Part shown: in pieces, positions 58,896 to 63,729 of the stretch
How positions within the stretch are numbered: position 1 is the first letter of the stretch
Layout: each line of letters opens with the position of its first letter
DNA from: Psychrosphaera saromensis
GTDB taxonomy: Bacteria > Pseudomonadota > Gammaproteobacteria > Enterobacterales > Alteromonadaceae
Assembly: GCF_002954545.1 (NCBI RefSeq)
Contig: NZ_MSCH01000003.1
Coordinates: forward strand, 1,390,824-1,454,823
Reading direction: 5' to 3'
DNA length: 64,000 nt
Translations under genes and position numbers: made by a program
Notes under the pieces: model-generated
The model's database searches: none
Told to the model about the DNA's origin: nothing
Seen by the model: the letters and a program-made list of their open reading frames with translations, nothing else

Positions 58896-59294
58896 CTAAT
58901 GTAATGTTTTCTTAGCGTTTACTGCGTATTCTAAACTTGCCAAATGTTCGGCGAATAAAATCGAGACGTTAGCCACTTTATTTAGACGATTTAATGTAAG
59001 TTGTAATACAGATAGACGTTGCTCTTCATACCCCAATACTTGCAAACTAGAGGCTAAAATTAACGCCGATTTTGTTAATAAAGGAATTGCTTTTTCTTGC
59101 TCAACAAAATTCCCGGTTAGAATGATTTCCGCAACTTCAAAGGCACAACCAAGATGTGGTAACGCATCGTAATGTTGTCCAACTCCAGCAAGACTAACAC
59201 CGGCCTCATTAGTATTTGCCCAACTTGTTAATGCCCGAGTAGGTTTACTGATAAGCTCTTCACGATGATTTGGACATAAAAATTGATGTTTCAT
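58896..59294 (-). CDS. Conserved hypothetical protein, first gene of a Fur-boxed pair
   Basis: Protein of 132 residues, predicted helical. It starts MKHQFLCPNHREELISKP, with a Cys/His pair that may bind metal, followed by repeat-like helices (HLGCAFEVAEIILTGNF, LTKSALILASSLQVLGYEE) of TPR-like style. I recall similar proteins of unknown function in vibrios and Shewanella, from memory only. The palindrome at 59352-59372 lies 57 bases before its ATG, so iron-dependent repression by Fur is expected. Confidence 0.65.
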   Translation of the reverse strand: MKHQFLCPNHREELISKPTRALTSWANTNEAGVSLAGVGQHYDALPHLGCAFEVAEIILTGNFVEQEKAIPLLTKSALILASSLQVLGYEEQRLSVLQLTLNRLNKVANVSILFAEHLASLEYAVNAKKTLH

Positions 59295-59567: not shown

Positions 59568-61352
59568 TTAGGTAAGAATGGGGGATGTATTATGAACGTT
59601 TTGTTCCTCATCGTTATTACTATTTATGTCTTCACTGTTAAACATGCATACGGCATTTCGGCCATTAGCCTTCGCTTGATATAAGGCGTTATCTGCATTA
59701 GATATCACTTTTTCAAATATTTCGGTATCACTGCGTAGCTGGTTTGGACCATTAAAGTTGGTAATAGAAACGCCAATACTCGTTGTTATTTTTACCGACT
59801 CATCAAAGTATTGAGTATCTAAATTTTCGATTGCAATCCGTAGATTTTCAGCAAGTTGCAAGGCTTCATTTTCATCTTTTACCGGTAATAAAACGATAAA
59901 TTCTTCACCGCCCCATCTTGCAATAACATCTTCTGGTCGCATTGTTTCATCAAGTAAGCGAGTAACTTGAATGATCACTAAATCTCCAGTGGCATGCCCA
60001 AATTTATCATTCACCAATTTGAACTTATCAATATCCAGTAAGAACAGGGCAAAGTTTTCATTGTTCTGTTTAAATTGAGGGAATAGCAGTGATGTAGCGT
60101 ATTTAAAACCTCGGCGATTGAATATATCGGTTAACTCGTCCTTCCTTGCATGTTCTTCAGCACGTTCTTTATCTCTTTGTGCATCTCTAAAGCGAGTCGC
60201 TAATGCAACCGCTAATATAATCCCTTCAAATGCCATACCTAACTCAATGGCTTTAAAAGTAAAGCTATTATAAGGCAGGAAACCAGCTACCGCAGCGGTC
60301 GATACACTGACACATATAGCGGCAGTGACAGAAGAGATAAGATAAAAGTTGGCCGCAGATGCTTTGGCTCTAACGGCTAAAACGCCTAACAAAATAGTTA
60401 AAATAGCAAAGCTGGTATTAAATAAGAAAGCAACAATAGTGGCTAAATGCAGTTGGTCCATAATGAAAAGGAATAAAATAATAAAAGGGATCGCGTTAGA
60501 AATATTGGCAATCGCTTTATTGAGGTTTGGCGCGTATAGATGTGTGTCTAAAAGTTTTCGACCAAAGTGTAAACCAATTACGCTGTAGGTGATCATCAAG
60601 GATACATCCATATAATCTTGGAAATGCACACCATGATGTGAGGTGTAGAAGGTGTAGAAATGGCCAGTGTAAGACATACTGTTTAATACAAAACCTAAAA
60701 TGTATAACACATATAGACCGAATATTTTTTTCCTAATAGAGAAGAATAACACCAGGTTATACAAAGCAAGTGCAACTAAAATACCATACAAAAAACCATA
60801 CTCAAATTTGTCTGCACCATAATCAGCGATGGCGTCTTGTACACTTGATAGCTTAATTGGAACTGGCATGATGGCCGTTGTTTCTATACGAATGTATAAG
60901 TCGGTTACACCGTTTTCAAATTGCATATCAGCAGCAAAAAATCGATTAAACACAGGTTGTTCTGAAATAGGTAAATGGTCGCCACCAACGATATGCTTAA
61001 CCTCTCCACTGGGGCTAACAAGATAAACGTCAATATAATCTAGCCAAGGAATCTCGATTGAAAGGCGATATTGGTTAGATAAAGACATACTATTATTGAT
61101 GCTTGTTTTGAACCAAGTTGAGTCGACATTAAAGCCTTTGGCAATAGTTTGACTACTTTGGCTAAACGTTGGTCCTGAAGCAAAATATTGTTGGGCATCT
61201 TCGAGTGATAATTTTTGGTTATCTTTTTCTGAGAAGTAAGTTAAGTAACTACCAATAGGGCTGGTTTCAAATGTAGCGAGGTCAATTTCTTTTGCGTTAA
61301 CGGTTTGCACGCATAAATAAAAAATAAATAAAATACAGGTTAATCGATACAT
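59568..61352 (-). CDS. 7TM-DISM diguanylate cyclase (GGDEF)
   Basis: Membrane signalling protein of 594 residues. It has a signal peptide (LTCILFIFYLCVQTVNA), a periplasmic beta-sandwich of the 7TMR-DISMED2 type (residues about 25-170, FKTSINNSMSLSNQYRLSIE), seven membrane helices (about 180-380), then a GGDEF domain. The active loop RWGGEEFIVLL (GGEEF at 481-485) and the inhibitory site RPED (472-475), five residues before it, are both intact, so c-di-GMP synthesis with product inhibition is predicted. LLDIDKFKLVNDKFGH is the metal-binding helix. The outer domain may sense a carbohydrate. Confidence 0.9.
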   Translation of the reverse strand: MYRLTCILFIFYLCVQTVNAKEIDLATFETSPIGSYLTYFSEKDNQKLSLEDAQQYFASGPTFSQSSQTIAKGFNVDSTWFKTSINNSMSLSNQYRLSIEIPWLDYIDVYLVSPSGEVKHIVGGDHLPISEQPVFNRFFAADMQFENGVTDLYIRIETTAIMPVPIKLSSVQDAIADYGADKFEYGFLYGILVALALYNLVLFFSIRKKIFGLYVLYILGFVLNSMSYTGHFYTFYTSHHGVHFQDYMDVSLMITYSVIGLHFGRKLLDTHLYAPNLNKAIANISNAIPFIILFLFIMDQLHLATIVAFLFNTSFAILTILLGVLAVRAKASAANFYLISSVTAAICVSVSTAAVAGFLPYNSFTFKAIELGMAFEGIILAVALATRFRDAQRDKERAEEHARKDELTDIFNRRGFKYATSLLFPQFKQNNENFALFLLDIDKFKLVNDKFGHATGDLVIIQVTRLLDETMRPEDVIARWGGEEFIVLLPVKDENEALQLAENLRIAIENLDTQYFDESVKITTSIGVSITNFNGPNQLRSDTEIFEKVISNADNALYQAKANGRNAVCMFNSEDINSNNDEEQNVHNTSPILT

Positions 61353-61477: not shown

Positions 61478-62992
61478 TTATTTATCGTAACAGCTTGGAT
61501 CTCGTGGACAAATGTTTCCTCGTGAGCAAATTAGTTTAGCATCGCTTTCTATCCCACGTTCTACCCAATTAATATTGAGTATTTTGGCAACACTCATTAA
61601 ATCACTCTTAATTGCTTTAGATGGTGTAGCAGAGCCACCTTTAGATGCGCAAAGCTGTTTTAGATCATAAGCAATAGATAAAGCATCTTTACCTTGCGCT
61701 TCAATGGCTGGATTTAAATCTATGCCTGCGCATAAAACGTGATTATTGCCTGCTAAGTCTTTTACATTGATGGACTCACAGCAATAGATTCGTTGTTCAT
61801 TGCCTACATTCATAATAGAAAGTTGTGCATCAGATTTACCATTAGCAGGGGCGTTGATCATTCTAAATACCGCCCAATGTTGGCAAGGATCGACAACGGA
61901 TCGCATATTGCCCCAAGGCAGTGGAATGCCATTACCTCGATACACAGCTTTTAATTTCCCAGGAGAGTAAGCATCAAAATAATGCCAATGGGAATAAGGC
62001 GATACCGCCGTCATGCGGCGCATAGCAACCGAAGCGGACACTTCTGCAACTTTGTGGCTAGATATTTCATAACCATGACGGTCTAATAATTGTCTAAACG
62101 GCACTTTAGGGCACAGCAAAGCGCCAGCAAAAAAGCTTGATTCAAAGTCTCGCCAAGCGTGCAACATATCTTGCGGGTCAACGGTAGATGATGAAACATG
62201 ATTAATTTGTTCTTGGGTATTTAATTGGTGTCCACCAACCGACATAACACTTTTTACACCGTCGGTATTGTGTAATACCGCATGACCTATATGTACGGCT
62301 AATTCGTATTTAAGTCGTAGTGGAAACTTTTTTAACAGTCGGTTTAACAGCAGTTTATTTGGCGCTTCAAAATAAGAGGTGATCACATTTTTTGAGTGAA
62401 TACCTAATTCATCTACCGCTTCTGCTGCGGGTTTATCAAACCACTTAATCACTAAACCAAGTTGTTTTGTGATAGCAACTAACTCATCTATGCTCAAAGG
62501 CATACGTTTTAAGCCGACTTCTTCTGCAGCGCGTTCTAAGTCTGGGAAGTGATTTTGATTGTTTTCTTGATGGGCTCTAATTAATAGCTGTGCAAATTGA
62601 CGTCCAGAAATACCGGTTTGCGATAACATTTCTGGTATCGCAATTTGCAGTATGTCATTAGAAAATAAAAAGCTAGGTTCCAAAGGCATGCCTTTAATAC
62701 CGCCACGACTGCCTTTATCTGGGATAATATCTTGATGATCGGCTTCATCATCTAGAAACCATTCAACATTTTTTTGGAATACACCAGCGACCACTTCAAG
62801 CATATCGATACTAGGCACACGTTTACCACGCTCAATCATAGACAGGTACGACACTGATGGTGCGTACTCAGGATCTATTCTGACACAACGGGCTGACAAG
62901 TCTTCTATGGTTAGTTTATTACGTTTTCGTAAATTTCTAATCTTAGTGCCAAGGAAATGTGATTTTCTTAATAAGCTTTTATTTGGTCTCAT
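61478..62992 (-). CDS. DUF3612 XRE-family regulator (RamB/ScfR-like)
   Basis: Protein of 504 residues. The N-terminal XRE helix-turn-helix (about 13-80: LGTKIRNLRKRNKLTIEDLS and YLSMIERGKRVPSIDMLE) is followed by a long sensory region and a Cys-containing end (SRGNICPRDPSCYDK), like the DUF3612 group. This layout parallels short-chain fatty acyl-CoA regulators such as RamB and PrpR, which control acetate, glyoxylate or propionate use. It is divergent from the malate-synthase-like small gene. Three phased repeats in the shared promoter are likely its sites. Confidence 0.75.
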   Translation of the reverse strand: MRPNKSLLRKSHFLGTKIRNLRKRNKLTIEDLSARCVRIDPEYAPSVSYLSMIERGKRVPSIDMLEVVAGVFQKNVEWFLDDEADHQDIIPDKGSRGGIKGMPLEPSFLFSNDILQIAIPEMLSQTGISGRQFAQLLIRAHQENNQNHFPDLERAAEEVGLKRMPLSIDELVAITKQLGLVIKWFDKPAAEAVDELGIHSKNVITSYFEAPNKLLLNRLLKKFPLRLKYELAVHIGHAVLHNTDGVKSVMSVGGHQLNTQEQINHVSSSTVDPQDMLHAWRDFESSFFAGALLCPKVPFRQLLDRHGYEISSHKVAEVSASVAMRRMTAVSPYSHWHYFDAYSPGKLKAVYRGNGIPLPWGNMRSVVDPCQHWAVFRMINAPANGKSDAQLSIMNVGNEQRIYCCESINVKDLAGNNHVLCAGIDLNPAIEAQGKDALSIAYDLKQLCASKGGSATPSKAIKSDLMSVAKILNINWVERGIESDAKLICSRGNICPRDPSCYDK

Positions 62993-62994
62993 TT

Positions 62995-63032
62995 TGTAAA
63001 ATTTACACTGTAAAATTTTTATTGTGAAATTT
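62995..63032. promoter_or_regulatory. Three 10-bp repeats with 14-bp phasing in a divergent promoter
   Basis: TGTAAAATTT (62995), TGTAAAATTT (63009) and TGTGAAATTT (63023) recur every 14 bases. The first is part of TGTAAAATTTACA, a perfect 13-base palindrome. They start directly at the DUF3612 ATG and cover its leader, a good place for autoregulation. The divergent gene starts 80 bases further on. Confidence 0.6.
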
Positions 63033-63111
63033 TAGTTTAGGTTGGATTAGACTAACAATCAAGCAATAGGGTAAACCAAAATAATAAATAACAGAGATTG
63101 AGGAATTAAAC

Positions 63112-63729
63112 ATGAATATGGCAACTAATGAGATAACTACAAAAATGACAACAAACAAGAGTCAGTTGGAGAGTTTAGGTTTTGATAGCTTTATCAATGA
63201 AGAAGTATCAATCTTAAATACCTTAAATGAAAAACGCATGACGGAGCTAATGAGCTACTCAAAAAGCTTTTTAGACAAAGTGTTTCCATTAGAGCAAGGT
63301 TCACATCAAGACGTGAGCAGCTACGTTATTTATTACAAACACTTGTTGGCTTTTTTTCCAGACGGAAGAAAAAGTGGTTTAGCTTCACCAAACCAATTTG
63401 TTGCATTAAGTGGCCATAAAAATGAACCAACTTCTATCGTTTTAAAAAATGATGGTTTTCATGTTGAATTAGTTTTTAACAAAAATGGCTCTCGTGGCAT
63501 TAAAGACATCGCGGGAATTGACGACATTCAACTTGAAACCACAAAAGCCATATTTGGAACTGCAGCGGCAGCGAACGATGACAATCTGAATAACAGTAAA
63601 CGCTGGTTTAGTATGATCCGTAGCGATGATGAATTAGTAATGGACTCTGCTGGTAATCAATTGTGCCGCTGTGTGGATGTTGAAAAAGCATTTACCGGTA
63701 AAGACGGTGGTGACTACAAAATAGCTTAA
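63112..63729 (+). CDS. Stand-alone malate-synthase-G-like domain protein, catalytic residues absent
   Basis: Protein of 205 residues with a good ribosome site (AGGA, 7 bases upstream). From about residue 43 it follows the N-terminal third of malate synthase G: FLDKVFPLEQGSHQDVSSY matches the LDxxxPLxxGS segment, PNQFVALSGHKNEPTSIVLK the barrel clasp, and GFHVELVFNKNGSRGIKDIAG the GLHIEIxxDxxxxxGxxDxAG motif. Where the enzyme has its catalytic acids (TTIMDxEDSVAAVD) this protein reads AIFGTAAAANDD. No remaining enzyme part follows. It is either a non-enzymatic regulator or scaffold, or a maintained fragment. Confidence 0.65.
   Translation: MNMATNEITTKMTTNKSQLESLGFDSFINEEVSILNTLNEKRMTELMSYSKSFLDKVFPLEQGSHQDVSSYVIYYKHLLAFFPDGRKSGLASPNQFVALSGHKNEPTSIVLKNDGFHVELVFNKNGSRGIKDIAGIDDIQLETTKAIFGTAAAANDDNLNNSKRWFSMIRSDDELVMDSAGNQLCRCVDVEKAFTGKDGGDYKIA

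Follow-up and report, generated by a model that had tools for sequence, protein, structure and literature searches.

The 64,000-nucleotide stretch of Psychrosphaera saromensis DNA analysed here (contig NZ_MSCH01000003.1, positions 1,390,824 to 1,454,823, hereafter the window) carries a small gene whose 205-residue product consists of the alpha/beta insertion domain of malate synthase G (MSG), the catalytic barrel being absent. The gene is divergent from one for a regulator of the DUF3612 family, and a three-repeat operator lies between the two. The elements of the locus are as follows.

63112 to 63729, plus strand: free-standing MSG insertion-domain protein, 205 aa, stop included in the coordinates
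61478 to 62992, minus strand: DUF3612 regulator, 504 aa, XRE helix-turn-helix and PrpR-like body
62992 to 63031, plus strand: operator of three direct repeats TGTRAAATT with a 14-bp period, its first base belonging to the DUF3612 start codon
63048 to 63053, plus strand: putative -10 hexamer TAGACT, 16 bp past the operator, with the third repeat at the -35 place
63100 to 63104, plus strand: ribosome-binding site GAGGA, read off the sequence

A sequence-only reading had taken the small protein for a free-standing MSG domain without the catalytic acids, and this is confirmed. PF20658 is its sole Pfam match at E up to 1, a threshold at which the TIM barrel and the N- and C-terminal malate synthase domains are absent; a full-length MSG linked to DUF3612, scanned for comparison, shows four Pfam domains. 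Residues 35-204 match E. coli MSG 146-329, the protein stops at the position of MSG residue 331, and the barrel strand that lies inside the insertion domain is reduced to a linker. The Mg ligands and catalytic Arg/Asp, which are Glu-434, Asp-462, Arg-339 and Asp-633 of M. tuberculosis GlcB in the available text of PMC5207166, are all missing. An acetyl-CoA or glyoxylate sensor was suggested earlier; one that works by way of the MSG active site is impossible, since the active-site residues lie in the lost parts. The fold is beta-rich, with a well-conserved hairpin VxSYVYYxHLLAFFxDG common to the short proteins and the linked MSGs. The window protein scores 194.6 bits against NCBIfam NF006511 and passes the curated cut-off of 173 bits; NCBIfam already models this short family, whose members span 132 to 233 aa, under the name 'malate synthase', an enzyme that they cannot be. 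Rfam and PHROG gave no match, and the promoter/terminator scan stayed at about chance level. The gene almost certainly belongs to the DUF3612 regulon, with a product that is conserved, folded and non-catalytic.

The regulator itself was placed by fold. Against solved structures the DUF3612 profile found one designed DNA-binding protein and otherwise only short matches to helix-turn-helix segments. The link to PrpR comes from fold comparison: the predicted model, a helix-turn-helix followed by a PrpR-type fold, has MtPrpR structures as its best matches. PrpR is an acyl-CoA/[4Fe-4S] regulator, and by model it is what DUF3612 best matches. Invariant cysteines at 489, 495 and 501 of the DUF3612 protein form the pattern C-X5-C-X5-C.

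The operator pattern occurs once in the window and in none of 100 shuffles. Among the loci compared, the full three-repeat pattern fits 75 of 78 non-empty intergenic regions, and a TAGACT-type hexamer stands exactly 16 bp past the operator in 48 of 75 loci (3 others have it at a different distance and 24 lack it); with the 16-bp spacing the third repeat would occupy the -35 position, as with an activator. When 18 whole genomes were scanned with up to 3 mismatches, the regulator intergenic region matched in 18/18 and a second short-gene promoter in three, the remaining matches being one overlapping register and two simple repeats, and the reversed control gave three. The window genome holds exactly one three-repeat site, that at the short-gene promoter, and no operator score above 5 bits was found in 98 kb of other MSG loci. 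Second copies of the short gene behave likewise: 11 were seen and 10 fetched, and an operator of 44-70 bits precedes all 10. Nine genomes of family f21 (presumed Vibrionaceae from their two replicons; L204-L211) hold such a copy at a distance from DUF3612, and each of the eight fetched has an operator of its own; in L204 it stands directly after a full MSG, near ICL (isocitrate-lyase-family) and LysR-like genes, and in L209 and L210 near dehydrogenase-complex-like open reading frames (ORFs), all these labels being by eye.

That operator-controlled second copies stand alone in this way, and that the protein has a beta-rich fold with a conserved hairpin, would suit an independent carrier or sensor of a small molecule, for example a CoA thioester or an organic acid bound in the beta domain, whose level alone the regulator sets. 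We consider this improbable. The glyoxylate/CoA tunnel of MSG lies between the barrel and the C-terminal-domain loop (available text of PMC5207166), neither of which the short protein keeps, and the available texts mention no ligand of the insertion domain.

The tie between the regulator and MSG-type genes extends through the order. An order-wide survey of 295 genomes, with a partner defined as an MSG-type gene on the opposite strand at most 4 kb from DUF3612, found DUF3612 in 72 genomes and a divergent MSG-type partner in 72/72. Partners were short in 44, full-length in 25 and intermediate open frames in 3, one of the last (G650) being a full MSG split across two frames. The locus table comprises 81 loci: 51 short by label (at L163 and L185 the partner ORF was not picked up in the table and the label was taken from the genome survey), 27 full, 2 mid and 1 split. 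Full-length genes usually have isocitrate lyase after them: an ICL-type neighbour of 531-544 aa accompanies 23 of the 27 full loci (missing at L164, L169, L170 and L179), and none was found in the fetched stretches of the short loci; the one neighbour of a full MSG checked with Pfam is an ICL. Among the best 80 of 183 matches in a search of genome contigs, which gave loci with named hosts, 62 were short (DUF3612 in 61, operator in 62, ICL in 0), 17 were full (16 with DUF3612, ICL and operator) and 1 was an interrupted frame from Marinomonas. The named genera with the short form are Psychrosphaera, Reinekea, Rheinheimera, Alishewanella, Alkalimonas and Shewanella, and those with the full form include Marinomonas, Psychromonas and Motilimonas. 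The analysis supports the view that the window gene encodes the insertion domain of an MSG such as occurs, under DUF3612 control, in operons of malate synthase and isocitrate lyase.

Some loci depart from this pattern. A class-wide NF006511 search put 1 of 369 genomes above the cut-off, a count that is low because the curated cut-off misses divergent members; G353 and G263 also hold short proteins. In G353 (L387:5297-7335) a 137-aa short gene divergent from DUF3612 is directly followed by ICL, the sole short locus seen with ICL. Two DUF3612-linked MSGs (L199:1967-4164 and L300) have an interrupted reading frame with ICL still downstream, which may reflect a sequencing error or recent loss. The short proteins found in Reinekea (Oceanospirillales; L243-L246) are 49-58% identical to the window protein, and those listed from Rheinheimera, Alishewanella and Shewanella about 39-50%, a pattern that hints, at the level of sequence identity, at lateral transfer of the DUF3612/short-gene pair.

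A functionless, decaying remnant of malate synthase would explain why the catalytic parts are gone and why lengths range so widely. It is scarcely credible. The short genes are under strong purifying selection: of 26 pairs compared within three genera, 19 have a YN00 omega of 0.015-0.091, far under 1 (the other 7 pairs gave no value, probably through saturation), and frames are intact. Operator and promoter spacing are conserved, second copies have operators of their own, and the short form persists as one clade across many genera. For the genus and its relatives, selection, operator conservation and the locus survey together rule out a pseudogene.

How often the enzyme was reduced was approached through trees. 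In the domain tree (95 columns, 101 rows, weakly resolved) the ordinary short forms make one clade (support 82) within the DUF3612-linked MSGs. Several origins were considered at first, the regulator tree needing 4 label changes; constraining the 51 short rows together raised the likelihood by 8.06 (p-AU 0.651), and this result and the single domain-tree clade led us to adopt one origin for the main short form. A mid form of 334-342 aa in two species of genus g3 has lost the barrel and keeps N-terminal and C-terminal remnants; it is 64% identical to the full enzyme in the insertion domain and 23-54% in other parts. Its separateness rests on those remnants and on its place as sister to the full MSG of L039 (support 93); forcing short and mid rows into one clade cost 21.1 lnL with p-AU 0.178, which still does not reject it. 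Outside the order, G263 has at a second locus (L389:4048-4614) a 188-aa insertion-domain protein with a three-repeat operator of 43.9 bits, set apart by its pairing, on a long branch with support 94, with the MSG at the genome's own DUF3612 locus. The enzyme has therefore undergone three apparently separate reductions, all keeping insertion domain and operator.

The same domain stands out within intact enzymes, being more conserved in DUF3612-linked full MSGs than in other MSGs. Where the catalytic part is 60-65% identical, identity in the insertion domain stands at 57% for the 88 linked pairs and at 42% for the 370 unlinked ones (with the two window-genome MSGs counted double as L002/L379 and L003/L378), and the gap shrinks as identity rises. 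In non-redundant sets free of doubles the distance ratio comes to 1.32 for the 17 linked MSGs and to 1.58 for the 33 unlinked ones, a difference reached by 0 of 5000 label permutations, which ignore relatedness. Many of the added conserved positions fall in the hairpin and just past it. If this holds, the extra constraint is older than the reduction of the enzyme.

From these observations we propose, at odds close to even (probability about 0.48), that the insertion domain plays a regulatory part in the glyoxylate-shunt circuit of DUF3612, as a protein partner of the regulator. Regulator, operator and domain persist as a set after the loss of enzyme and ICL, special constraint falls on this domain in the linked enzyme, and the regulator's only three-repeat site in the window genome is the short-gene promoter. 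DUF3612 would sense acyl-CoA state and drive the divergent promoter, and the insertion domain, as its dedicated partner, would feed back on how active it is. Before the reduction, in the ancestral operon, the domain may have done this job within the enzyme, in a trigger-enzyme arrangement, and once other malate synthases assumed catalysis the linked enzyme would have been free to shrink to its regulatory domain. The more specific form of this idea is tentative: a regulator-binding module through which the linked full MSG reports on itself to a PrpR-like factor, freed at least three times to act alone as a co-regulator of the glyoxylate shunt. The sequence-only reading thus stands in part, since pairing, operator, purifying selection and fold strongly support a kept, non-enzymatic descendant tied to a regulator of the glyoxylate type, and fares less well in two of its suggested functions: a sensor could not work through the MSG active site, as noted, and a subunit of MSG cannot be the role in general, since 28 of the 44 short-form genomes gave no full-length MSG match and 16 gave one (counted by eye).

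Several observations weigh against a partner of the regulator. A mirror-tree comparison of 38 linked loci correlates the regulator at 0.83 with the domain and at 0.92 with the catalytic part, so it reveals no special domain-regulator co-evolution. In the 80-90% identity bin linked and unlinked pairs do not differ (0.840 versus 0.837, with only 3 unlinked pairs), and an MSG-ICL locus with neither DUF3612 nor operator in view (L309) falls in the linked MSG clade, and the extra conservation may be a property of one MSG clade and not of regulator linkage. The two mid proteins are more alike after the domain (54/60) than in it (79/102), and second short copies do not adjoin the regulator gene. Outside the order, one DUF3612 gene (L390) adjoins MSA-ICL with no insertion domain near, in a genome without an MSG match; the domain is therefore not obligatory for every DUF3612 protein.

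The serious rival is that the short protein is the output of the circuit, acting on ICL or malate synthase to alter activity or assembly. ICL-family matches occur in 44/44 short-form genomes (by eye; the Pfam family also covers methylisocitrate-lyase-like proteins), ICL neighbours the linked full MSG at most full loci and the short gene in G353, and in the window genome the operator at the short gene only makes the short protein look like an output. An ICL target has to accommodate types that vary among short-form genomes (about 440 aa beside aceB versus about 531 aa), a malate synthase target the frequent absence of full MSG, and the MSGs near ICL and a LysR-like gene (L204, L378; by eye) belong to the unlinked group, where extra conservation is missing overall. 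On balance we hold this rival unlikely, though ahead of a small-molecule carrier.

The regulator probably also reaches aceBA in some relatives, through two-repeat sites. Among 18 aceBA/ICL regions of relatives, eight have two-repeat sites of 20-36 bits, 260-460 bp upstream of an aceB-type gene and all inverted relative to it, four in family f6 (presumed Shewanella) and four in f21; weak sites (10-14 bits) occur in 3 and none in 7, with no background score above 8 bits. Two of the regions (L374 and L375) have no aceB-size ORF beside ICL, and the Pfam check covered one aceB and one ICL (L362). In 13 genomes, with at most 2 mismatches allowed, the two-repeat pattern gave isolated matches elsewhere and 10 reversed-control matches, so that single two-repeat matches mean little. 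No two-repeat site was found at the window genome's own ICL and MSG loci.

That genome, of 3.6 Mb, holds two full-length MSGs besides the short gene, and ICL-family frames of 535 and 293 codons; at L378 one of the MSGs has as neighbours the larger of these ICL-family genes and a gene that looks LysR-like by eye. The aldolase-like and enolase-like ORFs 3' of the short gene (labels from sequence) keep their position in two close relatives and are not in place in three further members of the genus that were fetched. On the other side, a 132-aa ORF (58896-59294, minus strand) and a gene for a GGDEF-type membrane protein (59568-61352, minus strand; by eye) lie beside DUF3612 in L034 and L035 and not in the other loci compared.

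The locus offers a testable handle on an MSG domain for which the available texts give no role. It corrects the label 'malate synthase' for the short proteins, and it presents an enzyme whose reduction, apparently repeated, has each time left this one non-catalytic domain under DUF3612 control. Our literature search found no paper under the name DUF3612, nor for PF12268, none naming PRK08951, NF006511 or PF20658, and no function for the short family; DUF3612 is here tied to the glyoxylate shunt and to a defined operator.

Among known systems, the closest in logic are trigger enzymes, which besides catalysis exert control over a regulator. The likeness lies in the proposed ancestral role of the linked MSG, and the difference is that the regulatory domain here would be detached from the enzyme, its interaction being putative. 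The short protein shares fold and sequence family with the inserted domain of MSG (GlcB), domain III of the M. tuberculosis enzyme (PF20658); unlike GlcB it stands alone, lacking the barrel and both the N-terminal and the C-terminal domain. The window protein is a member of the 190-aa subfamily model NF006511/PRK08951, whose name implies an enzyme while the catalytic residues are missing. For the regulator the comparison is with MtPrpR and RamB, of the IsaR/ScfR acyl-CoA regulators; in the available texts PrpR controls methylcitrate genes (PMC6765138) and RamB glyoxylate genes (PMC10370305). The DUF3612 protein shares the helix-turn-helix and, by predicted model, the PrpR-type fold, resembling them by sequence in the helix-turn-helix only, and its cysteine pattern differs from the C-terminal motif C-X2-C-X4-C defined for IsaR/ScfR regulators (PMC6765138, available text). 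The five regulators of Shewanella aceBA named in the available text of PMC3223726 do not include DUF3612. The DUF3612 operator consists of three direct repeats spaced at a 14-bp period, and that of Paracoccus RamB of two boxes 18 bp apart (PMC10370305, available text); the partner gene of DUF3612, unlike those of MtPrpR and RamB, encodes a non-enzymatic MSG domain.
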